Shown here piece after piece: positions 3,520-56,757 of a stretch of 57,702 nucleotides of DNA. Each line of letters begins with the position of its first letter. The stretch's first letter is position 1. Source of the stretch: Alloascoidea africana (lineage: Eukaryota > Ascomycota > Alloascoideomycetes > Alloascoideales > Alloascoideaceae); NCBI GenBank assembly GCA_030581615.1, contig JAKTTT010000091.1, positions 1 to 57,702 on the forward strand. Direction: 5' to 3'. The position numbers and the translations under genes are program-made. The notes below the pieces were generated by a model. That model ran no database searches. It was not told the DNA's origin and saw only the letters and a program-made list of their open reading frames with translations.

Positions 3520-4494
3520 ATGAACCCAGCAGACCAAGAGCCAACACCACAACAGCTATGGCAAGATTCGCTTGTGCCGTTTTTTGTTGTGGTTAGAGAT
3601 ACTTCCGTAGTATCGTCTGCCGTATTAGACAGAAAGCCGCTGTCCACAAACAACTCTAATATGCTTCTATCCAATAGGTCAGGGTCGGGATCGGGATCGG
3701 TATCAGATACTGGCTCTGGCTCTGGTTTAGGGCTGTCGGACTCTTATTCTTCATCTAACTCAATGTTTAATGTCCCTGTTGATGCATACCCAGAAGTGCG
3801 ATACGTCTTTTCAGATGACGAAATCTCAACTACCCTGCTTGAAGAAGAGAACCAGATGCATAACTACCACATGGACAAATCAAAGGAGAAGGAGAAAGCT
3901 AATAATAGTAGTAATAGTAATGCTGTAATTGCGGTGATTGATTTTGCGGAAGATGGAGAAACTATAGTCAATGCTAAATGCCTAAGTGAAGAGTGGCAGT
4001 TGACCAATGTTTCCAAGGCTCAATTTTCATTTCCCTCTTCAAATGTCAAGGCCGCCCCAACAGTTGACGATCTACAACAACCCCAACAAGAGCATTACAA
4101 ATTCCCCGTTGGTGAGGGAAATAGTCCTCCCAAGAATAAACAAGGTGGCGAATCGAGATCAAGGTCCGCGTCCCCAGGCAATCTACAGAATCGAAAAAAC
4201 AGAGGAGCAGTCACACTAATACTAGATGGAACGTCAGCAGAACTACGAAAGGCTAAACGCGAAAAAGGAAAGAAAAATCATCTGCACCAAGTGCAAGAGA
4301 GAGCCTCAGACGCGGGAATGGGATCGAGATCAAGGCCGAGACCAGCACCGGCGTCAGCAGAGTCCGCAGGAGGATCGATGGCCAAGCTTCCCCGTAATAC
4401 CACAGTGGACCAGGTCGAACGGCTGGTGGATCTTTTCCAGAAAAGAAACCAGCAGCTGGTTAGCATCTCTTCATTATCGTTTAGTGGCAAGTGA
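3520..4494 (+). CDS. ATG31: candidate Atg31-like autophagy scaffold subunit
   Basis: A 324-aa protein, mostly low complexity (Ser, Asn, Gly-Ser repeats), with three ordered islands. An N-terminal strand is FFVVVRD. Around residues 90-99 comes YPEVRYVFSDD. Residues 135-163 run from AVIAVIDF to CLSEEWQLTN. The C-terminal helix holds LVDLFQKRNQQL (302-313). In order and spacing these resemble S. cerevisiae Atg31 as I remember it: an N-terminal strand, FPTNIKYIFED, NVIIVQLDESG...LISDQYELL, then a C-terminal LIKLYV..NEQL helix. Atg31 binds Atg17 and Atg29 to start autophagosome formation. The yeast protein is about 196 aa, so this one carries disordered insertions. The match is by eye, not by search. 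The gene is followed after about 300 bases by a zinc-cluster factor on the same strand. Confidence 0.55.
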   Translation: MNPADQEPTPQQLWQDSLVPFFVVVRDTSVVSSAVLDRKPLSTNNSNMLLSNRSGSGSGSVSDTGSGSGLGLSDSYSSSNSMFNVPVDAYPEVRYVFSDDEISTTLLEEENQMHNYHMDKSKEKEKANNSSNSNAVIAVIDFAEDGETIVNAKCLSEEWQLTNVSKAQFSFPSSNVKAAPTVDDLQQPQQEHYKFPVGEGNSPPKNKQGGESRSRSASPGNLQNRKNRGAVTLILDGTSAELRKAKREKGKKNHLHQVQERASDAGMGSRSRPRPAPASAESAGGSMAKLPRNTTVDQVERLVDLFQKRNQQLVSISSLSFSGK

Positions 4495-4806: not shown

Positions 4807-7800
4807 ATGGCATCCTCCGAGATGACTTCTTCGAACAACAATGACCAAGGTGATCTGAACTCGAATATCTCAGAAAGTTTGATGTCTACCGACCAGATAC
4901 GGCCTTTTCGGAACAAAGAAGCACCTTCAAGCACACAAGCTAAACGCCATCATAGGAAGTCGTATGCCTGCGGCCCATGCCGGAGACACAAGATCAAATG
5001 TGATAACTCCGTTCCCTGTTCCTCTTGTATCAGATACGGACGAGAAAAGGAATGCATGGAAAGTCCAGGCAAAATACCCCCATCAAAATCAAAAGGCATG
5101 TCTGTTTTTAGCCGCCGACTAAATCCTCAACCACTTCAGAAACGGGTTCAAACCCCAGAAATTTGCCAGGATGTTACGGCTCAACGGACCGGAGGGGCGG
5201 TGAAGCCAAATATGAGGCCGCAGCCTCTCGTCCCCAAGGTTCCTGTAATAAGCCAGACAGTTTCTAGTGCCGAGCAGCCGGCTAAGACGAATGTAAAAAC
5301 GTTACCATTCGAGAGTAGACAACAACTTCAGCAACTGGAATCGCAAATCAAAACGTTGGAAGGAGTAATTTCGATGTTGCGTGGCCAGATGGCTAGCATT
5401 GAAGGGACAAGCACAGCCTCTTCAGACACACCATTGACTAATCTGATCGAAAACTCAGGCTCGCCTATAGAGGCAGATTCGAAAGATAAATTGGCGAAAT
5501 ATCGACACATTTTGCTTCAGCTAGCAAAAATTATAGGAACTGCGCATACTCCAATTCAAGATCAGCAATTTCGAAAGCTGTTCCCTTTTTTCTATATGCC
5601 TGTCCACGATGCCTATAACCAAACTTCATCGAGCTTAAACTGGAAGCTGGTTACCACTTCAATAATACCGCCAAGAAAGCAGACAGAGCAACTGGTGGAA
5701 GCTTATATGGATAACGTGGACTGGTCAATGCATCCCTTTCACGTTCCAACTTTCCGCGAGGAGTTATCGTTGTTCTGGGAGATTGAAAGGGTAGAGGATG
5801 TCGATTTGACGTGGATTTCTATTTTGCTTTTGGTTTTATCACTTGGCTTAATGCACTTCCCTAAAGACCAATTAGGATCGCTGGGGATTTCTAGCATAGC
5901 AGTCAAAACTTCGAAATCAACTTCATCTAGCTATCAGAAAACGAGGGAAGCTGGGGTTAGTGGGAACGAAAACTCAATTGATGAATCAGCATTACGAAAC
6001 CTTTGTAATTCTTGGTTTATGTGTTCAAGAAGTGCAATTCATGCTGATGGATTTATCGACAAACCTAAACTCGGTCAAATGGTAACATTCTCTCTGTGCG
6101 ACATCTACTGCCATTTGAATAACAAGATCTCTATTCTTGATTCTTTCCTGGCTGAAATGATTATTCATGCATACTCATTGGGACTCCATAAGGACGATTA
6201 TGGCACTGATTACGAGTCAATGAATGGCGTTAATTATCTAGAACTCCAGCTAAGGAGGAAATCATGGTGGACTATAAACACTTGCGACACATTCTTTGCC
6301 CTGAGCTTTAACCGTCCTCCATTGATAAAAAAGAAAAACAACGTTCCCTTCCCTGCAAATGTAGATGATGAAGATATCGGGTTTGACTTTATAAGGGAAA
6401 AACCAATCGATGAACCAACCTCTGAAAGTTTCTTCATTTATTGGGCCAAGCTTCACAATGTAATGGCACAGCTTGGAGCAGAAGAGTTTAACTCACAAAC
6501 ATCCCATCTTTCTGATTCAGACACGCACACAAAGAACTTTTTAACAATAGTTCAAGTCGATAAGCAGTTATGTGAGTTTACCGAGTCAAGGCCATGGTAC
6601 TTTAAACTAGACAGCCAAGGTCACTTGCAACATAAGCATCCAGATCCAAGTTCCCCTTTCAATACATTAATGCCTCCGGATCGCCGACGTAGGATAATGA
6701 GACAAATACATTTTCAGCACCACCTATTGCATATTATTATATGTTTACATCGGTTCCGAATGCATCGAAATTATCTTATTATTAATAATGTTCTTTCCTG
6801 GGGAACTTGTTTTGCCGTTGCAAAGTTAATCAATTCTGTATACAAGGAGTTACGAGATTCATATCCTGTTGACGATCCATATTTTATGATTCAGATTTGT
6901 CCCACGTTCACCACTTGTTTGGTACAGGCAATGGTTCTGTTAGCTGCGGAGCAGCTTTTTGATTTGACTTATGAAAGCGCTAAAATACCTCCATCTCACT
7001 ATATGGACAATGGTACACAGAAGGAAGATGGAGAGAGTGTTGTCAGTGATCATATGATAAGCTTTGCCAAGTTTTTTCTGACAGATATACAAAGAATACT
7101 GGAGGATATTCACTTCATTTCAAACTTTTATGCCATTCGGTTGCCGACGCTGAGGAATGCGATTTCGTTAATTGAAAAGATTGGTACGACACCAAGGTCG
7201 GTTGAGTCAGGCATTAAGGAAAGTGACGAGGAAAAGATGAAAGCAAAATCAGACGAAAGCAGCAGCGAAAAAGAATACAAAGACTTGAAAGCTAACCATC
7301 ATGACTCGTATCTGCATAATTTCATAATGAGAATTTATGATGTGGCATTCAAACATTCTAAATCCGATGACACCGAGAACGAGAGTAAAGGCAATTTTGC
7401 CAAGAGCGATTCTCAAGGCTGTGTGGTAGGAAACGGAAATCACGCATCTATAAACAAAATTGAGGCCATGAACCCTGCATCCCGCGTTGATGATGAAAAG
7501 CTTGGGTCGCGGAAAACTCGTTTGACGGACTTTCGAGACGTCCGTCATATTGGCAGATGCGCAATACGATACTTGGTAAATGAGCTGGATGACGGAAACC
7601 ATAGTGATAGTTCAAACACAATGGGCCAGTTAGAAGATGCTTCAAAACCCTCCTCTTCATTTTCACCAGGTTCTACTTCTCTTAGTCGAACCGGGTCAAT
7701 TCTAAGATGCTCGTCAGCTTCCTCTATATCAGGCTCTCTAACTTCGTCGCCAGTACAGGCTTGTGTAGGGGATTTGAAAGACTTGCCAATGGATTGTTAT

Positions 7801-9285
7801 AATAGAAAAGACAAAAGATTAATGTTTCTTTCTGCTAATTGTGATGGAAACAATTCTCCGTCTGTGGGCCGAGACCCTAGTTGCTATTCCGAGGATATCA
7901 AAACCGCTTATTTGGAAGATAAAAAGAAAGGCGGCGCGGACATTTATGATTTTTGGTTGGACAGGAATATCTTCAGTTCAGGCTTTAGCAACATTGGATA
8001 CACACCTAACGAGGAAATGGTTAAAAAATCAATTAGATCTATAAAGCTACATTACGAAAGAAGGGCCGCATACTGGAGGAACGTTAATAACGACTCTCAA
8101 CAAATTAGGACAGCAAATCACCCGAAGAAGGAAGACGAGGAGCTAACCAGAGCTGGAAGTGTTTGTCTTAAACGTCCAGGGATGACGGCAAGCGATGGTA
8201 CTAAGAAACAGAAGTTCGGTGTATCTGATGTTAACAGAAAGAAAAATTCAAATGGTGGAACCAGGGTAGATATTTTTGGTCAAACTTATCAAGAATCAGT
8301 TCCAATGTGTGATGCTAAAAGTTCGAGAAATGGAATCAAAAACTCTAAAATCAGATTGCAAAACGCTATGGTCAACAACAACCAGAGAGCCAAGCCAAGC
8401 GATACATATTGTTATCCTCGTGCTCCGAATCAAATGTCAGAAAAGATATCTGTCCCACCTGTGAACTTTTTGCTTCCATCTCAAATCAATTATAACGCTG
8501 ATGACTTTTCTTCAGCTCCTACTAAGCATCCTTTTTCGAAACCAACCTCTCTTTTCTTGGCTCAGAACAACGGCGAGCAATATCCTGCTAACCACCTCAC
8601 TGCTCCTTACGATATGGGGTTTGCTGGTAATAATAGATACAATAATAACGGAGCGGCCGAAAAAAGTGGACAGGTTCCGAACAGCATATCTTCTGCCTCC
8701 AATTTTCGCACAGTATCCCCGAAATTGCATCCAAATCTACATCATCATGCAAAGTCGCTGGACACAAGAATTGACGAGCCTGGCATTTGTGGATATGCAC
8801 CAGATCGGTTTCCTTCTGCCAAAGATAATCAGGACCCTGAGCTACACAAACAGATGCAAGCAGCAATATCCAGTGACCAAGCGCGGTTAGAGGAGCAACA
8901 AAGTCATCATTTTAGAAGTTTTGATAACCTGTTCTCGGAAAATGGAAGGTCAGTTCACCATCAGTATGAGAACAGCAATGGCGGCAATATTTCAGCTTGG
9001 CCTATAACTGCAACTACGAAAGAAGGAGCAACTCAAAGCATTATAGGAAGAGCCCAACCACCTCAACCGTCCAACTTCATGGCTGACTCCTCTCACTTGC
9101 AGTCTCAATATGGCGAGTTACACAGGCATCCCCAAATGGAAGCTTCAAGTATGGGGAACGGGATGGAAAGTGATCTTGCTCTATTGGATTGGGACCAAAT
9201 TTTTACATTACTTCCGGAATCACTTTCTGGTCTGAACAATGATGGCCTGAACAATTGGATATCGGCCTATGGCAATGGTATTTGA
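4807..9285 (+). CDS. large Zn2Cys6 (zinc-cluster) transcription factor
   Basis: 1492 aa. Residues 55-83 form the zinc cluster CX2CX6CX5CX2CX8C (C55, C58, C65, C71, C74, C83) with a basic RRHKIKC recognition helix. A linker and a coiled coil follow near residues 176-195 (QLQQLESQIKTLEGVI), as in dimeric Gal4-family factors. The region of about 270-560 resembles the fungal-specific transcription factor domain, including a PxxxVPFPANVDDEDIGFD-like segment. The C-terminal half is disordered and rich in Asn, Ser and His. The last 40 residues are acidic-hydrophobic (LLDWDQIFTLLPESL), like an activation domain. Its target genes cannot be told from sequence. No intron is needed, and the ATG at 4807 is the first in frame. 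Confidence 0.88.
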   Translation: MASSEMTSSNNNDQGDLNSNISESLMSTDQIRPFRNKEAPSSTQAKRHHRKSYACGPCRRHKIKCDNSVPCSSCIRYGREKECMESPGKIPPSKSKGMSVFSRRLNPQPLQKRVQTPEICQDVTAQRTGGAVKPNMRPQPLVPKVPVISQTVSSAEQPAKTNVKTLPFESRQQLQQLESQIKTLEGVISMLRGQMASIEGTSTASSDTPLTNLIENSGSPIEADSKDKLAKYRHILLQLAKIIGTAHTPIQDQQFRKLFPFFYMPVHDAYNQTSSSLNWKLVTTSIIPPRKQTEQLVEAYMDNVDWSMHPFHVPTFREELSLFWEIERVEDVDLTWISILLLVLSLGLMHFPKDQLGSLGISSIAVKTSKSTSSSYQKTREAGVSGNENSIDESALRNLCNSWFMCSRSAIHADGFIDKPKLGQMVTFSLCDIYCHLNNKISILDSFLAEMIIHAYSLGLHKDDYGTDYESMNGVNYLELQLRRKSWWTINTCDTFFALSFNRPPLIKKKNNVPFPANVDDEDIGFDFIREKPIDEPTSESFFIYWAKLHNVMAQLGAEEFNSQTSHLSDSDTHTKNFLTIVQVDKQLCEFTESRPWYFKLDSQGHLQHKHPDPSSPFNTLMPPDRRRRIMRQIHFQHHLLHIIICLHRFRMHRNYLIINNVLSWGTCFAVAKLINSVYKELRDSYPVDDPYFMIQICPTFTTCLVQAMVLLAAEQLFDLTYESAKIPPSHYMDNGTQKEDGESVVSDHMISFAKFFLTDIQRILEDIHFISNFYAIRLPTLRNAISLIEKIGTTPRSVESGIKESDEEKMKAKSDESSSEKEYKDLKANHHDSYLHNFIMRIYDVAFKHSKSDDTENESKGNFAKSDSQGCVVGNGNHASINKIEAMNPASRVDDEKLGSRKTRLTDFRDVRHIGRCAIRYLVNELDDGNHSDSSNTMGQLEDASKPSSSFSPGSTSLSRTGSILRCSSASSISGSLTSSPVQACVGDLKDLPMDCYNRKDKRLMFLSANCDGNNSPSVGRDPSCYSEDIKTAYLEDKKKGGADIYDFWLDRNIFSSGFSNIGYTPNEEMVKKSIRSIKLHYERRAAYWRNVNNDSQQIRTANHPKKEDEELTRAGSVCLKRPGMTASDGTKKQKFGVSDVNRKKNSNGGTRVDIFGQTYQESVPMCDAKSSRNGIKNSKIRLQNAMVNNNQRAKPSDTYCYPRAPNQMSEKISVPPVNFLLPSQINYNADDFSSAPTKHPFSKPTSLFLAQNNGEQYPANHLTAPYDMGFAGNNRYNNNGAAEKSGQVPNSISSASNFRTVSPKLHPNLHHHAKSLDTRIDEPGICGYAPDRFPSAKDNQDPELHKQMQAAISSDQARLEEQQSHHFRSFDNLFSENGRSVHHQYENSNGGNISAWPITATTKEGATQSIIGRAQPPQPSNFMADSSHLQSQYGELHRHPQMEASSMGNGMESDLALLDWDQIFTLLPESLSGLNNDGLNNWISAYGNGI

Positions 9286-9509: not shown

Positions 9510-11519
9510 ATGTCAATCGAGACTGTAGTTCACACAGATAGAGCTAATGGCCCATCAAACAGCTTAGTAAATGGCATACTTTTGCAAGACCAAAAGGCGA
9601 GTTCTGGGGAAACAATGGGGAACAAGTGGAGCGATAAGGAGAGGAACAAACTTTTCGATGATGACTACTCAGTTGATATAACAAACGTTGGATTCTCTTC
9701 TGATCACAATTCACACGCCATTTCACCTAGTATTCATAAATATACACACGATGGAGGGGCTTTCTATGGCGGAGGTGCGTCCCTGTATCCAGCAAATACC
9801 AAAGATAATGTTCCGCGCCCACCAGATCTTACATTTACTACTCCTTCAGGAACAGGTGGTAATTCACGATTTGTGAGATTTTCAAATGGAAGTGCTGCTA
9901 ATTCTAGTAGCGCGAAACAGACAAAGAAAGGAAGAGACAAGCCGAAGGGATACATGTTCCATCTCAAGAAATCTCGAGTCAAAGTTTACATCACTTATCC
10001 TGACACTTCAGGCGTGGGGCTTAACAGTTATGATGACCGTCCTTTTGCTCTTCGAGATATTAAAGGGTTTGAATATTTTTCATCACCTTCTTTTTCGGCA
10101 ATTGGAAACGGAAACAATATGAGGTCCAGTCCACGTAAAACACTCAATTGTGAAGAGAGGATAACGACACGGCCAAACTCCATGGCCCTGCTTCTTACCA
10201 ACTCATTGGGCTTGGAAAGTGAGCCAAACCTCCTTCTTGCCGACCGTTATGCTACGAGTTTGAAATGCGTTGTCGCAGTGCCCGATCTTTTTGAAGGTGA
10301 TCCGATAAGGTTGAATAACTCTTTGGACGGTGATGACGAAGATGACAATGACGAGGATGATGAGCCTGGAAAACAAAACACATTGAACAATAATGACAAA
10401 GCAAAGCTTGCAACAAACAGCAACCCACAAGCTACAGACGCCACAGAGCAGCCTATTTCAGAAGTTTGGCTTAAAAAGATCCAGAATCTAGCTTCTTCGG
10501 TTGTGGAATCGGTGCACGAAGACATGTGGCTTAAAAAGCATACGCCATTAGATTATGACAATATGGAGCGATTCTGCAAGATTTTACAGGAGTTGATTTT
10601 AGATTTCAAAATCTCCAGGATGGCTATTATTAGCTATTCGATTGGGGCAGCCTATGCTCTGCGAGCGCTAAGTCTTGAGGACGATGCTATTTACGAAGCC
10701 GTTGGAGACTGGAACAGACATCATCAGCATCAACACTCTAGATCAAAATCAAACTCTTTATCAAGTTCAGCGTGGTCCTTTTTTTTTGGTAATGAAAGCG
10801 GAGGTGATGAGGATGACGAAAGCGATAGTGAACACGAATCTGTTGGGAAAAATGGACCAGAACCTGGAATAAAGAGCAGATTCTTGGACGCTATCAAGGG
10901 AGTAGTATTGATACATCCAACAGGATCCATGCCTGATCTATATTCACAAGTTCGTACCGCATCCTCCCATCCTCCCTTCTCTCCCATTTCTCCAAGCTCT
11001 CAGGGGAACAGCAATACAGGGGACGACTTGGAATTGGAACTTTCAAAGTCCAATTTTTCCGATAATGCTTCTATCTTTTATATTACAGCGAGTGAGACAG
11101 CACTTATGAACGCTGAGGAGATTGAGAAGTCCATTCTTTACCTGAGCAAAAGATTTCAACCTACAACAACAGATCAAGGCTCACAACTTTTCAATAGTGA
11201 TAAAAATGATCAAGGATATGACGACGCCAACGATGTGTTTTCTTCAATCCCAGATAACCCACTGATAATCTCAGATGATGAAGACGAAGAAGAAGACGAT
11301 GAGAGTTTGATAATTGTAAAACCAGAGTCGCCACAATCGCACAAGACAACTGTTCCAGGCAGCCAATTTCAGTATGTGTCCTTCAGCAATAAGGAGCGGA
11401 AACTGCCACATAGTTTTGGTGTTCCAGGCGATTACCCAAAGTCCGTGGTTGGTGAATTACCTGAGGTTTGTGTCCGGCTTGCATCGCTGTGGATCACAGA
11501 AAGATTTGATATCACCTAA
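9510..11519 (+). CDS. dienelactone-hydrolase-like protein with acidic insertions
   Basis: 669 aa with an alpha/beta-hydrolase (DLH) skeleton spread among disordered acidic inserts. The segment ADRYATSLKCVVAVPDLFEGDP matches the family's strand before VPDLFxGDP. ISYSIGAAYALRAL (from residue 374) matches the nucleophile elbow. GVVLIHPTG is a following strand. HSFGVPGDYP supplies the catalytic histidine (H634). In the usual elbow GxCxGG the nucleophile is cysteine, and here the aligned residue is serine (S377). The acid appears to be Glu (ASETAL) rather than Asp. S. cerevisiae relatives (Aim2-like) are about 250 aa, so roughly 400 residues are inserted, with poly-Asp/Glu near 270-290 and 580-600. 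Substrate unknown, and it may be a regulatory or degenerate hydrolase. Confidence 0.65.
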   Translation: MSIETVVHTDRANGPSNSLVNGILLQDQKASSGETMGNKWSDKERNKLFDDDYSVDITNVGFSSDHNSHAISPSIHKYTHDGGAFYGGGASLYPANTKDNVPRPPDLTFTTPSGTGGNSRFVRFSNGSAANSSSAKQTKKGRDKPKGYMFHLKKSRVKVYITYPDTSGVGLNSYDDRPFALRDIKGFEYFSSPSFSAIGNGNNMRSSPRKTLNCEERITTRPNSMALLLTNSLGLESEPNLLLADRYATSLKCVVAVPDLFEGDPIRLNNSLDGDDEDDNDEDDEPGKQNTLNNNDKAKLATNSNPQATDATEQPISEVWLKKIQNLASSVVESVHEDMWLKKHTPLDYDNMERFCKILQELILDFKISRMAIISYSIGAAYALRALSLEDDAIYEAVGDWNRHHQHQHSRSKSNSLSSSAWSFFFGNESGGDEDDESDSEHESVGKNGPEPGIKSRFLDAIKGVVLIHPTGSMPDLYSQVRTASSHPPFSPISPSSQGNSNTGDDLELELSKSNFSDNASIFYITASETALMNAEEIEKSILYLSKRFQPTTTDQGSQLFNSDKNDQGYDDANDVFSSIPDNPLIISDDEDEEEDDESLIIVKPESPQSHKTTVPGSQFQYVSFSNKERKLPHSFGVPGDYPKSVVGELPEVCVRLASLWITERFDIT

Positions 11520-13385: not shown

Positions 13386-15368
13386 ATGGTGCCTCTTTCA
13401 CCAGCCACGACTGTCACTGGAATTTCTGCCGAAGAAGAGTTGGGGGCAGGGATGGGCCTCCCTAGACAGAACCAGCAGGCATCCACGCCAGGGGACTATG
13501 CCATCCGGCTAACGCCATTTGTTGACCACTCCTCTGTGTCACCGCCTTTCTATTTTGCTCCCATCAAGCGAAAGGGAAAAGCTGGCCAGCGGATGAATGT
13601 CGGGCGAGACACTGACAAAAAGCCCATCGAGTCGTTTGCAATCACCTTCCGCTCAAAGGTCGTGAGCAGGTCTCATGCGGAAATTAGGGTCGGGACTAAT
13701 GGAGAATGGTACATCCGCGATGTCAAGTCCAGCAGTGGGACTTTTTTGAACCACTCGAGACTGTCGCCATCTGGGGTCGCGAGCGAGGATGTAAGGCTCA
13801 AAGATGGAGACTTTCTCCAACTAGGACTCGATTTCCACGGTGGAACCGAGCCGATCTACAAGTGTGTGAAAATGAGAGTTGAACTTAACTATAGCTGGAA
13901 ACGCAGGTTGACAAAGTTTAACGTTAGTGCGCTACACAAGCTACAAGCGATGGCTAGCCAGATCCGCGCAGAGGTCGGAGCTGACGGTGATGACAATGGC
14001 AATGGCGATGGAGAACTGCAAGTGTGTTCCATCTGTCTAAGTAAGGTCAGCCCATTTAAGCCACTATTTTTCGCACCCTGTTCACACTGTTGGCACTATA
14101 AATGCATCCGGCCCTTGGTGGTCAAAGCCTATCCGCATTTTGAGTGTCCTAACTGCAGGGCTGCTTTTGACCTCGAGGCTGATGACGACGATGATGAAGA
14201 CGAAGAGGCTGAGGAGAATGAGGATGAGGAGATGGTCGATAAGGAGGCCGACGAAGAAGCTGAACAGGGGTACTCGAGTGCCTCGTCAGGCATAGGGATC
14301 TATCCTCCTTCCCGATCTGAGTCTGTAGCTCCGGTCGCGGGCAGAGATGGGAGCAGAAGCAGAGATAGTAGCACCGGCCGGAGCATTAGCAGAAATGCTT
14401 CAGCATCACTGGCCCCCGACCCCTTGCCCTTTCGTACCGGGGGAAGACCTTCTCCCGTTTCCAATGCACTCAGTGCAAGGAGTAGGGCTTCCCCGGCCGC
14501 TTCTGGCTCCTCGTTTACAGGAAACATACACATCGCACAACTACTCGCCCATCTCGGGCAGTTTGGGTCCCGATCCGCCACTAACAAGCCAGGCAGATCT
14601 GGCTCTGATTCAATCGGTATCAGAGCTGATACGCGCGGGAGTTCCCCTGAACACGGCGGTGCGCCTGGTGGAGCAACCATCTGCTACCGCCCATTTTCCC
14701 AGCCACAGGAACAGGAACTGCTCGCCGCCCAGGCAGCGAAGGAGAAAGTCAAGCACGGAGTCGATCCCAACCTCCCAGCTCCTCCAGCAACAGCAGTCGC
14801 AGGTGGAGAAAGAGAGGGAGGGCCTTCTCCGGCGGTCGAGGTCGAAGAGCCTCTCCAGAACACCAATAACTACGGGATCAGGAGGAGCACGAATGCGAAT
14901 GAGGTCGAGGGCCCTAACGAGGTCAGCGTCCAGGTCCAGGTCCCGGTCCAGATCCAATTCCAGGTCGACCCCCAGCATGCACATGAGAATGAGAGTCGTC
15001 AGCGACCCGGTCTCGGTAGGCTGGCTGTCGTATCCTCCTCCTCTTCCTCCTGCTTCTCATCCTCTCCCAACTTTGATGACTCCGCAGACGAACCCGAGTA
15101 CCAGGATGCACGAGAGCAGCTCTCAGCCTCTGGATTTGAACCTGGCCCCTGGAACAGAAGCGTTGGATCCGACCGTGAACGAGGCGAGCATGAGCGATCT
15201 CAAGAGCGATCTCAAGACAATGAGGGTTATGTCTCAAGCTTTGCTGATGCAGGAGTCCGATCCAGAACGAGAGCCAGAGCACCTTTCTTTCCCAGGTCTG
15301 AATCAGGATCAAGAAGCGGCCCTAGCGCCGAAAGTCCAGCAAACGCTTTTCCAAACAGGGGAAACTGA
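13386..15368 (+). CDS. FHA-RING E3 ubiquitin ligase, Dma1/Dma2 family
   Basis: 660 aa as an uninterrupted frame. An FHA domain occupies about residues 50-165, with the phosphothreonine-binding signatures MNVGRDT, VVSRSHAEI and SSSGTFLNH. A RING finger follows from C214 (CSIC ... PCSHCWHYKC ... CPNC), then a long Asp/Glu tract and a Ser/Pro/Arg-rich tail. This order is diagnostic of Dma1/Dma2 (S. pombe Dma1, Chfr/RNF8 relatives), which act in the spindle-position checkpoint, septin and cytokinesis control. Family members usually end soon after the RING. The tail here overlaps by about 1 kb another open frame that runs on to a membrane anchor, so the true 3' exon may lie in that frame. The FHA and RING part is certain, the tail is not. 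Confidence 0.88.
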   Translation: MVPLSPATTVTGISAEEELGAGMGLPRQNQQASTPGDYAIRLTPFVDHSSVSPPFYFAPIKRKGKAGQRMNVGRDTDKKPIESFAITFRSKVVSRSHAEIRVGTNGEWYIRDVKSSSGTFLNHSRLSPSGVASEDVRLKDGDFLQLGLDFHGGTEPIYKCVKMRVELNYSWKRRLTKFNVSALHKLQAMASQIRAEVGADGDDNGNGDGELQVCSICLSKVSPFKPLFFAPCSHCWHYKCIRPLVVKAYPHFECPNCRAAFDLEADDDDDEDEEAEENEDEEMVDKEADEEAEQGYSSASSGIGIYPPSRSESVAPVAGRDGSRSRDSSTGRSISRNASASLAPDPLPFRTGGRPSPVSNALSARSRASPAASGSSFTGNIHIAQLLAHLGQFGSRSATNKPGRSGSDSIGIRADTRGSSPEHGGAPGGATICYRPFSQPQEQELLAAQAAKEKVKHGVDPNLPAPPATAVAGGEREGGPSPAVEVEEPLQNTNNYGIRRSTNANEVEGPNEVSVQVQVPVQIQFQVDPQHAHENESRQRPGLGRLAVVSSSSSSCFSSSPNFDDSADEPEYQDAREQLSASGFEPGPWNRSVGSDRERGEHERSQERSQDNEGYVSSFADAGVRSRTRARAPFFPRSESGSRSGPSAESPANAFPNRGN

Positions 15369-16902
15369 TTATGAGCAACAGGTCGAAGCAGACTTTAATA
15401 GGGTTCTTATCATTAATACTGTGCGTACAAATCAGGAGCAGGAGCAGGAGCTCATTAACAAATTTCGACAGCGCTCAAGTACCTCTGTCCATAACCGTAC
15501 TCGTGCTCCTACTCCTATCCCACAGTCCAGTACAAAAGAGCCATCTTCAACTTCAGCGTATAATGCTAACATAAGTCTGAGTAGAGACAAGCCACAATTA
15601 TACTCGCTAAAATCCCCTACATTTACGCACCATTTCACAAGCTCTGAAAATGCAAAAGCCTCGTCCTCTGCAATTCCAGTGATGAGGTCTGAAAATCCCA
15701 AGCCCAGGCCTCATTCTATGTCTGCCTTTTTTGTCAATAGCACTCCAGATTTACACATTCAAACATCATTCCCCCAATCGCTGGCATCTCCATATGTACA
15801 ATCGCAATCTAAGTCGCCTTCAACCTCATCGTCTCAATCGTACAAACCATCCCAGAGCACTCAATCTCAGCCGTTTACAAGAGTTTTCCCCTATTCTTCC
15901 TCTGCGCTAAATCTTCATTCATCATCTGCACCCAAATCGAGCTTCAAGCATGATGAACTATCACATTCATCAATGTCCCGGATACCGTCAACTGCAAACA
16001 CCCCAGCCACAAGCTCTACCAGCAGTAGATTGCATGATTCACCTCATTATCATTTTTCGGTAGCCTCTACTCCACCATCTTCGGTTTCCTTTTCCCCATC
16101 CAATCGAGCATTCGTGAGTGGATCAAAAGATGAACTTTCTAGCCCGCACCTGGGGCTGCAGAATGACGACAATAGCGACAGAAGAAGTCTTAAAGAAAAG
16201 AGAAAAGGAAAAGCCAGAGCAGTAAATTCTGGCATATCGGTACCAATGAGCTCGGGTAAGCCCAGGTCTCTGAGCATGTCTTTTCCATCTGCATCTCCGT
16301 CTTTTCCAATACTACCCCGACCAGTACCTGAATCCGCCTCTGTTCCTGTGTCGGCCTCGGTGATCGGAGCTGCGGCCCCGATATCCCGATCCCGATCCCG
16401 AACTGTTTCTAGAAAACACAGGTCACAATCTTCCCATAGAGAACAATCGTCCCAGTTTTGTCATCGGGTTGAGAATGATCAATCACGACATCAAGAGCAG
16501 GCTGTTGAAAGGCGAAGCACGAGATCAATACATCGATCCGCCACTTCCCCTGAAGTAATGAGGCCATCGGCACAAACAAAGTTCAGAAATGGAATACCAG
16601 AGACACGATCCAAGCATACCAAAGAACAGCAGCTCGAATCTGCTTTTGCTTTCTCATTTCCGCTTCCTTCTATCCTTCCCTCGGCCATCCAGATAAATAC
16701 AACTAGACTAGGGGTTATCACAAAATCTTTCCTCTTGTCCTTAATCACGACCATTGCAATCTGGCTATGCATTCAACTCGTTGACTTTTTTCCACTGGTT
16801 AAAAATTTCCTGTATGTTGTAATATGGATCATCTTGAATATTTTAAAGTTTTTTATTTGGATCTTATGGCTTTTTATTCGGTTGGTGTGTGTCCAGTTAT
16901 GA
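14347..16902 (+). CDS. second long frame with a C-terminal hydrophobic anchor (separate gene or 3' exon of the FHA-RING gene)
   Basis: An 851-codon frame, +1 relative to the FHA-RING frame and overlapping it from 14347 to 15368. From about 14593 it looks coding: a helix (DLALIQSVSELIRAG), an RS-rich stretch (SRSRSRSRSNSRS), then Ser/Pro-rich disorder. The last 60 residues hold two adjacent hydrophobic segments (SFLLSLITTIAIWLCIQLV and FLYVVIWIILNILKFFIWIL), a tail-anchor or hairpin membrane insertion. The ATG at 14347 sits inside the neighbour's coding region, which is odd for an independent gene. Splicing from the FHA-RING frame is an alternative: ACTAAC at 14580-14585 is a good branch motif followed by CAG at 14590-14592 and AG at 14596. 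The nearest frame-keeping GT (14482) is a weak donor. Confidence 0.55.
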   Translation: MGAEAEIVAPAGALAEMLQHHWPPTPCPFVPGEDLLPFPMHSVQGVGLPRPLLAPRLQETYTSHNYSPISGSLGPDPPLTSQADLALIQSVSELIRAGVPLNTAVRLVEQPSATAHFPSHRNRNCSPPRQRRRKSSTESIPTSQLLQQQQSQVEKEREGLLRRSRSKSLSRTPITTGSGGARMRMRSRALTRSASRSRSRSRSNSRSTPSMHMRMRVVSDPVSVGWLSYPPPLPPASHPLPTLMTPQTNPSTRMHESSSQPLDLNLAPGTEALDPTVNEASMSDLKSDLKTMRVMSQALLMQESDPEREPEHLSFPGLNQDQEAALAPKVQQTLFQTGETDYEQQVEADFNRVLIINTVRTNQEQEQELINKFRQRSSTSVHNRTRAPTPIPQSSTKEPSSTSAYNANISLSRDKPQLYSLKSPTFTHHFTSSENAKASSSAIPVMRSENPKPRPHSMSAFFVNSTPDLHIQTSFPQSLASPYVQSQSKSPSTSSSQSYKPSQSTQSQPFTRVFPYSSSALNLHSSSAPKSSFKHDELSHSSMSRIPSTANTPATSSTSSRLHDSPHYHFSVASTPPSSVSFSPSNRAFVSGSKDELSSPHLGLQNDDNSDRRSLKEKRKGKARAVNSGISVPMSSGKPRSLSMSFPSASPSFPILPRPVPESASVPVSASVIGAAAPISRSRSRTVSRKHRSQSSHREQSSQFCHRVENDQSRHQEQAVERRSTRSIHRSATSPEVMRPSAQTKFRNGIPETRSKHTKEQQLESAFAFSFPLPSILPSAIQINTTRLGVITKSFLLSLITTIAIWLCIQLVDFFPLVKNFLYVVIWIILNILKFFIWILWLFIRLVCVQL

Positions 16903-17351: not shown

Positions 17352-19070
17352 TTATCTTGCTTGACTCTTGAAAAAAACTGTGTTTAACCACGTATGGGAT
17401 TGGCAGCTCGGCGCTTGATTCAAAAGAAACAAAACCGTAGCTGTTGATGAAGTTTTTCCCCAAAATGGAAGAGTAAGTAGAGAAATAACAACAAGGACAA
17501 TGATTGCTGCAAAAACACTGTTTTTGAGATTGTACGAAATATAAAAGTTTTTACTACGATCACCAGTCCTTACAACATATCTCAAATTGCCAGAGACATT
17601 ATTTCTTGAAAAGTAGAGCTCTCTACTTTTCACGTTTGGCGTGTAAGGGATGCCAGTGGCCTCGACCTCAACAGGTCGCATCTCGTGGATCCACGTAAAG
17701 CGATATCCTATTGCTATAGGAGGATCGCTAGCAGCACTATAATTCGAACAGGATGGTACACCAAACGTTATGTAGGTACCGCAAATATTGGGAGAGGAAG
17801 GACTGGAGAATGGGGTAGGGGTATTTGCATAGAAAACTTGAAACACCTCAAAGTTGGACTTTTCAACGAGATTCAGCCACGAGGAGATATTTAGCCTTGT
17901 AGAATCTGTCACGTTTGGGACGAGATACATCAAGTCAACAACAGCTTTACCTTTGGAAAACTTGGTCGAGTTCAGAATTGATACTCCATACGGTGTGATA
18001 TTGGAGTTGTTTCCACTCAGTGTCATGTCCAGCGTTAAGGAACCGGGAACAGTCTGTATCGTCTCGCCTGTTATTTCGCTACTTAGGGGTACTACAGAGA
18101 CAAGCCTGTCTCGGATGAGACAGTTTCTGCTCTCTCCTTGCTCGTCCACCATTTCCGCCAAGTAGGACGAATAAGTGCCCACGGGCATGTGGTATATAGG
18201 GATATGAGCAAAGTCGTAGGTTCCGCCTGTTCCTAGAAGTTTGGCTTTGGCACCGAGAGACAAAAGTCCGCCCTCCTCGGTGTAGTAAGAGCTGAGAGCA
18301 GAACTCTCAAATTGATTGGCGGTTACATTTGTGTAGACAGGATTCATGCTCGCTCTAGTGGAAATGTTCAGAGCCAACTGCTTCCCTGAAATGCCCAAAG
18401 CAATGTCGTTAAAGTCAAAAGTCTTATTAATTCTCTCTGGGGGCTGTCCCAAAATCCCTTCCTCATTTGCCATGTCTGCAAATTGGGCCCAGGCATAAAG
18501 CCCTGTCGTCAATTTGGCATTTACCAGCGAGTTACCGCTTACTTTCTGATACAGGTTGTCGACTGTCGACAAGGGGTTTGGGACAATTACAACCTCCTCT
18601 GACGAATTTAGAAACGCCAAGGCAACCATATGGCTACCCAACGACATAAGGCCAAAGATGACAGTGGCCAGGATAAATATTGGTGGTGCCCGTTCCTTTT
18701 CCACAGTCCATTTTGTGTCCGCTGCGCTCTTCCAAATCCTCCTCCAGGGTCTTTGGGATAATAGTGTAGCTGGAGCCTCTGACTCGGAAGGGGCATCTGG
18801 AATAGAGGATGTTTGATGGTAGCACCTTTTGCTTAAATCTTCATAGTTGAAGGTGGCGAATTCAACATTTGTTTGACTTCTCTTCAAATCAGTCTCTGTT
18901 TTGGACCATGTCTCAGTGACAGATCGAAGAGGCGAGGTGCGGAAAAAAAACCAGAGGTTTGCCGTCTTCATCAAATTCGCAAGATAGTCAAAAAGAACAT
19001 AAACCAGATATGAGATGGCATAGCCTGCTATAGTCGACAGGGCAAGCAAAGAGGCATAGTTAATGAGCAT
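17352..19070 (-). CDS. fungal membrane glycoprotein, paralogue A of a divergent pair
   Basis: 572 aa from the ATG at 19070. An ATG at 19160 would add 30 residues, including a low-complexity Ile run. The inner start is chosen because it aligns with the start of the neighbouring paralogue (MLINYASLLAL... against MIVSYHQLPIL...). The protein has an N-terminal membrane segment, a second hydrophobic stretch after a Ser-rich loop (PIFILATVIFGLMSLGS), a long lumenal or extracellular domain with many NxS/T sites, and a C-terminal membrane helix (AAIIVLVVISLLTLPF). It shares with its neighbour the segments VLFDYLANLMKTANL/LVDRLSNALRCANL, EEVVIVPNPL/EKILLVSNPI, ISGKQLAL/LYGKELAE and a common PxGTYSSxL motif. 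I recognise no named family. Probably a plasma-membrane or vacuolar surface protein. Confidence 0.8.
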   Translation of the reverse strand: MLINYASLLALSTIAGYAISYLVYVLFDYLANLMKTANLWFFFRTSPLRSVTETWSKTETDLKRSQTNVEFATFNYEDLSKRCYHQTSSIPDAPSESEAPATLLSQRPWRRIWKSAADTKWTVEKERAPPIFILATVIFGLMSLGSHMVALAFLNSSEEVVIVPNPLSTVDNLYQKVSGNSLVNAKLTTGLYAWAQFADMANEEGILGQPPERINKTFDFNDIALGISGKQLALNISTRASMNPVYTNVTANQFESSALSSYYTEEGGLLSLGAKAKLLGTGGTYDFAHIPIYHMPVGTYSSYLAEMVDEQGESRNCLIRDRLVSVVPLSSEITGETIQTVPGSLTLDMTLSGNNSNITPYGVSILNSTKFSKGKAVVDLMYLVPNVTDSTRLNISSWLNLVEKSNFEVFQVFYANTPTPFSSPSSPNICGTYITFGVPSCSNYSAASDPPIAIGYRFTWIHEMRPVEVEATGIPYTPNVKSRELYFSRNNVSGNLRYVVRTGDRSKNFYISYNLKNSVFAAIIVLVVISLLTLPFWGKTSSTATVLFLLNQAPSCQSHTWLNTVFFKSQAR

Positions 19071-19229
19071 TTTGCTAAAGTCTCGAGCAATTGCCAGACA
19101 AAAAAAAAAGGCAATGGAATATATAATAATAATAATAATAGCCGAACAAGGGTGTTTCATGATCCTAATGATGAATTCTCAAAGATTCCTATTCATGATC
19201 CATTGCGGTTATCTTTTGTCCCAAACTCC

Positions 19230-20957
19230 ATGATTGTATCTTATCACCAACTTCCCATACTGGCATTCGTGGTGGGCTTTGCCGCTTCAGAGATATTCCT
19301 AACGCTAGTGGACCGCCTGAGCAATGCTCTCCGGTGCGCGAATCTGTTTCTGGCGCTTTCTACTTCCTATTTGAAGCTGATCTCAGAGTCTTTAAAATGG
19401 TTGTTCCAGGGACGAAAAGAAAATGGGCCAATTCCGCTCCCTTCTTCAGAAGAGGAAGATGAAGATGACCGCCGTCGAGGATATAGCACGCCAGGGTCCG
19501 AAACAGACCAAGAAGGCAGAACCGAGAACCCTAGGTGGAGCAGTTGGAAAGCGCTGACATCTTTGAAGCCGAATACGTGGGAAACAATTCCTGTTCGTGC
19601 TCCAGTGGTCATCCTGCTGGTGGTCGTCTGGCTTTTCCTGCTCACGATACCAGCGAGGTTTCTCAGCATTCCTATCCAGTACGCTTCGGAGAAGATTCTG
19701 CTCGTCTCGAATCCAATACTCTCAAAAGATAGCATTTACGAGACATATAGCCAGAGCAGCTTGCTCGATGTGGAGATCACGAACGCGCTCTATTCATGGC
19801 TCCGCTTCTACGATGTCTTCCCGCCAGAGGTACCAACATCTGTTGACAACTCCAAGGGATATAATGACCTCGCTATAGCGCTTTATGGCAAAGAACTCGC
19901 AGAGACCGTATCCGCTGACGATGACATCTTCAAAGCACTCCACGGAACCGGTAATTCCATCGACCAAACCAACATGTGGGATTCGACATTTTACTCTCTG
20001 GACACAAACTACTATTCACAAAACCACGAGCTGCTGACGATCGGACCGAGCGCTTTGAAAGTCGACTTTTCTGCGGTTTACCACTTTCCATTCCTGAGTG
20101 TTCCAGAGGGGACCTATTCGAGCCGGATATCGAGACTGAATGTGTCTAATGAGTCGGTAGTGGTTGCAATCAGAGATAGACTCTTGAGCACAGAGGTAAT
20201 TGCGGGACAGACCAACAATACCCAAGATGGAAAGGTCATTGAACCAAACTCGACTTCCTACGCTCTGAGTTACAGAGCACTCGATAGTAGAAATAATTCC
20301 TACACCGCAACTGCTAATGTTTATGCCATGAGTGCAAACAGTGAAGAAAACAGGTTGGTGCAAACCATGTTTTACAGTGGGGCAAACCTAAACGGATCGA
20401 TAGACTACGGGTGGTTTGATACACTTCAAAAAGTGAATCGTTTCTATCTCTGCTCCGACGTGTCTCACTCTGCAATGGGCTTTTATACTATTGAATGCGA
20501 GAACAGAGTTCCAACCTATAGTTCGACAATGAAGAATTCCTCAGAATACTATGCAAGACCAAATTTCTCCACCGTGCAAACCACCTGGCAAAGAGAGTAC
20601 AAAAGAGTAAATCTGAACACTAATACAGGCGACTCCAATAGCGGAGTTGTACTGAAAGATTATCATTCAGCATCGCTTTCATTCGACAAGATCGACGTTT
20701 CTGGAGAGCATTCATACAGAATAAAAGATCTCAATAAGCCTGTCTCAGGCATCGAGAACCAGAATGGAAACTTGACACTGGTGACACTAATATCGACTCC
20801 ATTGAAAATTGGGATGATCTTAATTGTCTGCATTTGGTTCATTTTACTTTTGATACCCCGTCTAACACAGACTGCATTGTTATTGTTCATTGAGGATCAG
20901 GAATCTTGGCTTGGACATTCCAACAGAGCCATCTTTGCCAGTTCCAGGGCAAAATAA
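19230..20957 (+). CDS. fungal membrane glycoprotein, paralogue B of a divergent pair
   Basis: 575 aa from the first ATG at 19230. The frame is open upstream to 19152, but only through a GTG. Organisation is the same as in the neighbour on the minus strand: N-terminal membrane segment, Glu/Asp-rich cytosolic loop, second helix (APVVILLVVVWLFLLTIP), large N-glycosylated domain, and a C-terminal helix (IGMILIVCIWFILLLIP) with a short tail ending ASSRAK (neighbour: KSQAR). The two starts are 159 bp apart and head to head, so they share a promoter. The pair arose by inverted duplication and has diverged far, with lengths of 575 and 572 aa kept. Function unknown. Confidence 0.8.
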   Translation: MIVSYHQLPILAFVVGFAASEIFLTLVDRLSNALRCANLFLALSTSYLKLISESLKWLFQGRKENGPIPLPSSEEEDEDDRRRGYSTPGSETDQEGRTENPRWSSWKALTSLKPNTWETIPVRAPVVILLVVVWLFLLTIPARFLSIPIQYASEKILLVSNPILSKDSIYETYSQSSLLDVEITNALYSWLRFYDVFPPEVPTSVDNSKGYNDLAIALYGKELAETVSADDDIFKALHGTGNSIDQTNMWDSTFYSLDTNYYSQNHELLTIGPSALKVDFSAVYHFPFLSVPEGTYSSRISRLNVSNESVVVAIRDRLLSTEVIAGQTNNTQDGKVIEPNSTSYALSYRALDSRNNSYTATANVYAMSANSEENRLVQTMFYSGANLNGSIDYGWFDTLQKVNRFYLCSDVSHSAMGFYTIECENRVPTYSSTMKNSSEYYARPNFSTVQTTWQREYKRVNLNTNTGDSNSGVVLKDYHSASLSFDKIDVSGEHSYRIKDLNKPVSGIENQNGNLTLVTLISTPLKIGMILIVCIWFILLLIPRLTQTALLLFIEDQESWLGHSNRAIFASSRAK

Positions 20958-54095: not shown

Positions 54096-54457
54096 GAAAG
54101 AGCATTTACTGCCTTTAGCCAAAAGGTTGTTGTCCTTAATTCTTTGTAGCACTGTGCGTAGGTGTTTTCGAAAATACAATAATGTCATCTAGATAAACGC
54201 ATACACTTATTCCTATTAATCCTTCTAAAATATTATTCATGAGTCGTTGAAACGTGCTTGGAGCGTTGCATAATCCAAACGGCATAACTCTCCAAGCACG
54301 TTTCAACGACTCATGAATAATATTTTAGAAGGATTAATAGGAATAAGTGTATGCGTTTATCTAGATGACATTATTGTATTTTCGAAAACACCTACGCACA
54401 GTGCTACAAAGAATTAAGGACAACAACCTTTTGGCTAAAGGCAGTAAATGCTCTTTC
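54096..54457. repeat. perfect 168-bp inverted repeat with a 26-bp spacer
   Basis: Arms 54096-54263 and 54290-54457 are exact reverse complements as far as I can read. The spacer is 54264-54289. Both arms come from the RT region of the retroelement. It is a fold-back duplication, or else an assembly or library artefact. Confidence 0.9.
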
Positions 54458-56757
54458 TTTTGCGAAAGAGTCAATTTCTTAGGTTTCGTGATTGGTCCAA
54501 AAGGGATTGCACCGGACAGTAAGAAGTTAGAAGTAATTAAGGAATGGCCAGTACCAACTACAAGTAAACAAATGATGAGTTTTTTAGGATTATGCAATTT
54601 TTACAGACGCTTTGTACCCAGATACAGCGCCATAGCTGGTCCATTAATTGAGTTCGCTAATGAAAAGTCAACATGGACATCAAGTCAAGATGAAGCATTC
54701 GAAAAGTTAAAAGAAAAACTTATGTCTTACCCAATTCTTATTTCGCCAAATTTTGAAAACACATTTGTTTTATCGACAGATGCTTGTGGATCTGCTTTAG
54801 GAGCTGTGCTGGAACAACAAGATAAGGATGGAAAGATAACAGGAGTAATTGGTTATTTTTCGAAGAAGTTAAAGCCTAACGAACTAAAGTACCCTGTACG
54901 ACAAAAAGAATTTTTAGCAGTCATAGCAGCAATCAGAAATTGGAATCATTTATTAAAAGCAGTCCATTTTATCATTCAGTCGGATCATCACAGTCTCGTG
55001 TATCTACAATCCCAAAATCAAATACAAGAAGGAAGATTAGCTCGTTGGCTAGACTTTATGGCAGAATTTGATTTCGTTATTCGTTACGTTCCTGGAAAAC
55101 AAAACTCAGCAGCAGATGCCTTGAGCAGAATGGAAGTTAATTTAATCACACTTGAATTACAACCTGATGAAGAAGAAAACGGACAGTTAATTAGTGGATA
55201 CGAAAATGATAATGAATTTGGACGAATATACACTGTGCTCAAAGAAAATTTGGAGATACCGACAGAAATAAATCACTTTATCAAACACTTTAATATACAA
55301 AATGATGTTTTTTTTTTTTGCGCTACAATTGGAGATGATGAATGGAGAATATGTGTTCCTGACATTGAACTAAGAAAGGTAATTGTTTCACAAGCCCACA
55401 ATCCGCCAACTGCTGGACATTTCGGACCATACAAAACTTATATGAGGATAATGCCATTATTTTACTGGAAGAAGATGTTCAATAATATTAAAAGATTTGT
55501 TAACAAATGTCATACCTGTAAAACAAGCAAGACTACAACTAGAGCAGTACAAGGTCTTATTATGCCACTTCCAATACCTAGAGGACCATGGAAACAAGTT
55601 AGTTTAGATTTTGTGTCGGGTTTACCAAAACAAAAAGAGGAAATGACAATATGTTTGTAATTGTTGATCGATTTTCAAAACGAGCACATTTTATCGCGTG
55701 TACCAAAAGAATTACTGGAGAAAAAGCTGCACAGCTTTACATCGAGAAAGTTCTTAGCCAACATGGAACACCAAAGGTAATAGTTAGTGATCGTGACGTG
55801 AGGTTTAGATTTTGGAAAACGATTCACCACAGACTTCAAACTAAGTTGAATATGTCGACAGCAAGACATCCGCAGACAGATGGGCAGACGGAAAGAACCA
55901 ATAAAACCCTTAATCAGCTATTACGTGCTTACGAAAAGGATGATATCAGTAGATTGGATGAATTTTTGCCGATGCTAGAATTTGCGTTCAATAGTGCGTA
56001 TCAAGAAAGCATTAAATGTTCACCTTTCGAAGTGGATTTAGGAAGAATGCCGATGCAACCAGGATTTGTTACAGGATGGAATTTGGAAACAGTTTCGTTA
56101 AAAGCAGATGAAATTTCTGATAGGTTTAAAGCGATACAAGCAAGAACAAGAGATATTTTGGTAGACGCTCAAAGACAACAAGAGAAACAAGTTAATCGAC
56201 ATCGAAAAAAAGTGGATGTGAAAGTTGGAGATGATTTATTAGTGCATAAGGAAGCTTATGGAGGAAATGTTCTTTTCAGTAAAATACTGCCGGTTTATTT
56301 TGGTCCTTTCAGAGTGGTGAAAAGAATAAATGACAACGCATTTGAAATTGATTTACCTAGCACATCAAGGAAACATCGAACAATTAACGTGGAACATTTG
56401 AAGAAATACCAAAAATCAGATTCATATCATAAGGAACCACCAAGACCTGCTGCAGAAGTGTTGGAAAGAATTAATGAAATGAACGCGATGACTGGATTTG
56501 ACGATGAACAACAGACAGTTTGTGTGACTTGGAAAGATGTGGATCCATTTTTATCGACAAGAATATCTTTGAAGTTATTTCAAAAGGCAGATAAACAATT
56601 ATTGGATACGCTATTAGATCAATGGATGATTTTGAACGATCAAGAAATCCAAGATCCAGAACAATATGATGAAGAAGAGGATAACAATTAAAGACATACT
56701 TTCAACATTTTACACCTCAATTTTTTCGGTATAAAATGACGTTTGAAGGGGGAAGAA

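Follow-up and report, generated by a model that had tools for sequence, protein, structure and literature searches.

The window, the whole stretch of DNA that was analysed, comprises positions 1–57702 of contig C91 (57,702 nucleotides) in a genome of 23.18 Mb in 138 contigs. A single-exon ORF lies near its start, in which the sequence-only reading had noticed three islands resembling segments of Atg31, a small component of the scaffold that starts autophagy. The intact 324-aa frame and its three islands were confirmed as described. The ordered-looking islands lie between low-complexity stretches, and the locus contains the following features:

3520–4494, forward strand: candidate ATG31, single-exon ORF of 324 aa plus stop (codon usage; Pfam ATG31 on pieces)
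3580–3624, forward strand: possible first strand FFVVVRDTSVVSSAV, residues 21–35 (weak; match to the Atg31 N-terminus by eye only)
3649–3759, forward strand: Ser/Gly-rich low-complexity stretch, residues 44–80
3787–3819, forward strand: island 1, YPEVRYVFSDD, residues 90–100, which matches Atg31 FPTNIKYIFEDD
3919–4002, forward strand: island 2, NAVIAVID...LSEEWQL, residues 134–161, a predicted hairpin that matches Atg31 NVIIVQLDESGSLEDITLISDQYEL
4033–4377, forward strand: Ser/basic-rich low-complexity linker, residues 172–286
4390–4470, forward strand: island 3, residues 291–317, a predicted C-terminal helix that matches the Atg17-binding helix of Atg31; residues 299–317 read VERLVDLFQKRNQQLVSIS

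With a codon-usage model trained on other long frames, the candidate frame scored +0.089 over the whole ORF and the other five frames −0.02 or less. All five segments of the ORF were positive in frame; at residues 287–324, one other frame was nearly equal to the candidate frame (0.051 vs 0.047). When the DNA of a 200-kb sample was shuffled, no open run exceeded 136 codons, compared with the 324 codons of the candidate ORF. A possible intron was noted by eye within the Ser/Gly stretch (GTATCA at 3700, CTAAC near 3756 and AG at 3793); its removal shifts the frame, and the uncut ORF was therefore kept. Scans for bacterial promoters and terminators and for tandem repeats gave nothing informative.

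Several other features were observed in the window. The gene of a large zinc-cluster transcription factor (4807–9285) adjoins that of a 669-aa protein (9510–11519, forward strand), for which no Pfam match was listed up to E 10. An FHA-RING ORF of 660 aa (13386–15368, forward strand) overlaps, by about 1 kb and in another frame, an 851-aa ORF (14347–16902, forward strand) that has no Pfam match and carries hydrophobic segments at its end; the two are perhaps one spliced gene, or one is a spurious frame. A divergent pair at 17352–19160 (reverse strand) and 19230–20957 (forward strand) encodes two membrane-like proteins that are related to each other, with 25% identity across 359 aa, and that matched no Pfam family at E 0.01. 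Near the contig end, reverse transcriptase RNase H and integrase domains occupy two slightly overlapping frames (54365–56691, forward strand), which by our reading form part of a Ty3/gypsy-like retrotransposon.

The candidate was compared with a sequence that we take to be S. cerevisiae Atg31 (ScAtg31), which the Pfam ATG31 model (PF09795) matches at 174.5 bits, and with L. thermotolerans Atg31 (LtAtg31) as spelled out in PDB alignments (4hpq, 4p1w, 5jhf). The islands of the candidate follow the Atg31 order in both comparisons, as the sequence-only reading had proposed. Taken singly, they differ in strength. The score of island 1 was reached by 11 of 2,000 shuffles with ScAtg31 and by none of 2,000 with LtAtg31; the corresponding counts for the C-terminal island were 95 and 4. 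The middle island is unremarkable with ScAtg31 (224 of 2,000 shuffles), and its best position with LtAtg31 lies elsewhere in the candidate (489 of 2,000). Similarly, the best pairwise position of the N-terminal block A is not at residues 21–35.

Four blocks, A to D, were defined from the Sc and Lt Atg31 sequences only, and the candidate was scored for blocks in the correct order. Blocks B, C and D together gave a score of 57.0, which was reached by none of 5,000 whole and none of 5,000 local shuffles. By this score, the candidate ranks first of 206 frames, each 130 aa or longer, from 284,707 bases of the same genome; when the other frames were cut into 378 pieces no longer than 324 aa, none of them reached it. 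Blocks C and A alone are unremarkable, being matched by 773 and 1,729 of 5,000 shuffles, respectively. For the pair of islands 1 and 2 (B and C), the candidate was only fourth of the 206 frames, with 3 of the 378 pieces reaching its score; for islands 2 and 3 (C and D), it was only third, with 1 such piece. Inclusion of block A leaves a thin lead, at 66.0 compared with 65.5 for a 1,745-aa frame.

The Pfam library of 24,736 models was then consulted, in which PF09795 has a curated cut-off of 25 bits. The full-length candidate (1–324) had no ATG31 match, and neither did residues 15–171 or 86–165. ATG31 was nevertheless the best family for five of eight uncut pieces that contain islands 1 and 2, a count in which the full length is included and the pieces overlap and are not independent: residues 81–171 (E 0.0046), 85–171 (0.0053), 76–176 (0.0029), 61–181 (0.0015) and 81–324 (0.0021). 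The last of these corresponds to the profile search that had been proposed as a check on the assignment; it places ATG31 at the top of all families at 18.5 bits, below the cut-off. When the linkers were removed, with the island positions already known, and the islands were joined, two similar constructs matched ATG31 at E 4.4e-5 (24.0 bits) and 8.3e-5, and islands 1 and 2 joined alone matched it at E 2.2e-4, so that ATG31 was the top family in all three true-order constructs. No piece reached 25 bits, the best scores being 19.0 uncut and 24.0 with the linkers removed. Short pieces with island 2 alone or island 3 alone did not match ATG31.

ATG31 appeared in none of eight scrambled controls (two reversed, five shuffled and one with islands 1 and 2 swapped), which were derived from a reversed tile, four shuffled tiles, the island swap and a joined construct reversed and shuffled, nor in five tiles of other window proteins. 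One shuffled control matched an unrelated family at E 0.013, and hence E-values of 0.002–0.005 are by themselves only suggestive. Two considerations act in opposite directions: ATG31 had been named before any profile was run, which makes the match stronger than the all-families E-value suggests, and it had been chosen from many genes and families, which makes the match weaker than a single-model P-value suggests. Every ATG31 match spans islands 1 and 2 only, with no visible contribution from the C-terminal island in the pieces that contain it; the profile is thus silent on the C-terminal helix. The match to PF09795 is sub-threshold but specific.

Ordinary similarity searches were unsuccessful. 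Phmmer with LtAtg31 was not significant (E 0.83 among the 206 frames, in third row, and 1.7 among 431 shorter frames of the window), nor was a two-sequence HMM (E 0.23 among the 206 frames, in first row, and 0.48 among the 431). With ScAtg31, the candidate ORF was not among the phmmer matches listed. Hhalign aligned the correct stretches in the correct register at P 0.041 for the C-terminal helix and 0.025 for island 1, weak values that compare with P 0.17 for an unrelated control ORF. In a search of the candidate against the PDB, none of the 12 chains listed was Atg31; its matches, in three alignments, fall at residues 33–118 around the Ser/Gly stretch. A search of the genome with the candidate revealed no second copy; the other two matches listed (E 0.005 and 0.76) both begin within the low-complexity stretch, at residue 40. 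PF09795 and LtAtg31 found no ATG31 in the genome, and both also missed the candidate ORF itself, so that these searches do not prove the absence of an ATG31 elsewhere.

AlphaFold models from the single sequence without relatives were poor, with a pLDDT of 40.4 for the whole protein and 60.2 for residues 83–172. The low-confidence model contains strands at residues 21–25, 135–142 and 148–155 and a helix at 296–316, which are compatible with Atg31; the models also place a helix at residues 99–120, where none would be expected. According to a review (PMC4506457), Atg31 adopts a sandwich of eight strands in the solved complex, one of them contributed by Atg29, and the fold is lost without Atg29. 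A model of the candidate alone is therefore a weak test.

The partners of Atg31 were located by profile searches of the same genome. ATG17 is clear (contig C113, 151.4 bits). For ATG29, whose profile has a cut-off of 25.7 bits, two adjoining exon matches in profile order on C36 fall slightly short, at 22.1 and 25.1 bits; three stretches spliced together by eye reach 63.5 bits (E 1.6e-17). Residues 7–92 of the joined Atg29 match L. thermotolerans Atg29 in the PDB (5jhf, E 1.2e-7), including the N-terminal strand region. ATG13 (C28, 216.5 bits) and ATG101 (C30, 69.7 bits, with another exon matching at 22.3 bits) are also clear. A weaker second ATG13 match (C56, 40 bits) likewise lies above its cut-off, and there are two ATG11 genes (C31 and C38; 36% identical over the aligned part). 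Two RPB2 genes, on C71 and C11, were also observed (82.8% identical over 969 aa). The duplicated RPB2, ATG11 (36%) and ATG13-like matches hint at an old genome duplication, a hybrid origin or a mixed assembly. The top-scoring PDB chains for an RPB2 copy and for the 75-kDa complex I subunit are presumably from Komagataella. The proposed position of the organism at the base of the subphylum was not borne out by a tree of five 75-kDa complex I subunit sequences, in which the supports are only 66 and 68.

Collectively, the sequence comparisons and the partner genes make it probable that the ORF encodes a divergent Atg31, which would bridge Atg29 to Atg17, although the PF09795 cut-off was not reached. 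We infer the fold, binding and function of the candidate from the solved Atg31 family, and the bridging mechanism is taken from two papers (PMC4506457; PMC9643702). By analogy, residues from about 20 to 165 would form a β-sandwich completed by an N-terminal strand of Atg29, and the last 30 or so residues would form a helix docking on the concave face of Atg17. The candidate would thereby link Atg29 to Atg17 and stabilize the curved Atg17 dimer that serves in autophagosome initiation. The disordered inserts (residues 44–80, about 107–131 and 172–286) would mask the match in ordinary searches.

The candidate could instead be a mostly disordered fungal protein unrelated to Atg31, with short islands that are similar by coincidence, and the true ATG31 would then lie elsewhere or be missing. 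All full-length matches fall below curated or conventional thresholds, low-complexity content favours chance matches, and the genome searches for a better ATG31 were too weak to find even the candidate. The sequence-only reading had stated that the lack of a profile hit together with a predicted structure lacking the Atg31 fold, or a clear ATG31 elsewhere in the genome, would speak against its proposal; what was found is a specific hit below the threshold and no clear ATG31 elsewhere, by searches blind to the candidate too. A chance resemblance is nonetheless unlikely, given that the three islands in order were matched by none of 10,000 shuffles and rank first of 206 frames, and that ATG31 led 24,736 families in five of eight uncut pieces and in none of eight scrambled controls. 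Moreover, a genome that encodes Atg17 and a strand-bearing Atg29 would be expected to need an Atg31 bridge.

Less probable still is that the candidate descends from Atg31 but has been repurposed, so that with Atg101 present it no longer bridges Atg29 and Atg17, or serves another process. Atg101 is indeed present at 69.7 bits, and PMC4506457 and PMC9643702 suggest that, where it occurs, it takes a role like that of Atg29–Atg31 or replaces Atg31. Conversely, the parts of the candidate that appear conserved are the binding elements, both Atg17 and Atg29 are retained, and S. pombe Atg101 fails to replace Atg29 and Atg31 in S. cerevisiae (PMC8997447). A phosphosite may also be considered: S174, which is required in S. 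cerevisiae (PMC4383750), corresponds to Gln298 in the candidate, a point in favour of a repurposed protein. LtAtg31, with Pro at this position, is likewise without the serine; the S174 site is thus not family-defining and cannot decide membership.

If the candidate is a bridging Atg31, Atg29, Atg31 and Atg101 occur in one genome, contrary to the 2015 review, in which Atg101 on the one hand and Atg29 and Atg31 on the other are described as likely mutually exclusive among species, a matter it calls a riddle (PMC4506457). The combination of a clear Atg101, Atg29 and a probable Atg31 argues against simple replacement. Atg29 and Atg101 are already known to occur together in Magnaporthe oryzae (PMC9643702), and the present candidate suggests a hidden Atg31 in other Atg29-bearing fungi. 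We regard it as somewhat more plausible than its opposite that a complete Atg17–Atg29–Atg31 scaffold stands beside Atg101, the two not being alternatives, and that Atg31 is older than thought and has probably gone unrecognised in fungi with Atg29 but no annotated Atg31, such as Magnaporthe. The replacement idea would become directly testable within one organism, and the divergent candidate sequence could seed profiles for hidden Atg31 in other fungi. Neither Atg31 together with Atg101 in one species nor Atg31 in a basal yeast was reported among the literature matches listed, which consisted of titles and the starts of abstracts and included few subscription papers.

Compared with known systems, the genome shares with M. 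oryzae the presence of both Atg29 and Atg101, and differs in having an Atg31 candidate. The M. oryzae Atg1 complex is described as Atg1, Atg13, Atg17, Atg29 and Atg101, with no Atg31 found, and the replacement of Atg31 by Atg101 is a hypothesis of that study (PMC9643702). Compared with S. cerevisiae Atg31 (Cis1), the candidate exhibits certain discrepancies. It is longer (324 aa vs 196 aa), contains long Ser/Gly and Ser/basic inserts and remains under the Pfam cut-off, and its linker at residues 172–286 exceeds the matching acidic loop of ScAtg31. The two proteins share the island order, the Y-[IV]-F-x-D-D motif, the hairpin (predicted in the candidate) followed by [IL]-S-[DE]-[QE]-[YW], and a C-terminal helix near the protein end, which in the candidate is likewise predicted. 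The candidate is approximately twice the length of the LtAtg31 PDB chains (4hpq, 4p1w and 5jhf; 151 and 159 aa), and the middle island alone does not align with LtAtg31, whereas island 1 does. The predicted C-terminal helix aligns with that of LtAtg31 without a gap over 26 residues (PRQLGNLPLEKLVQLYKLQNDQLHSL vs PRNTTVDQVERLVDLFQKRNQQLVSI).
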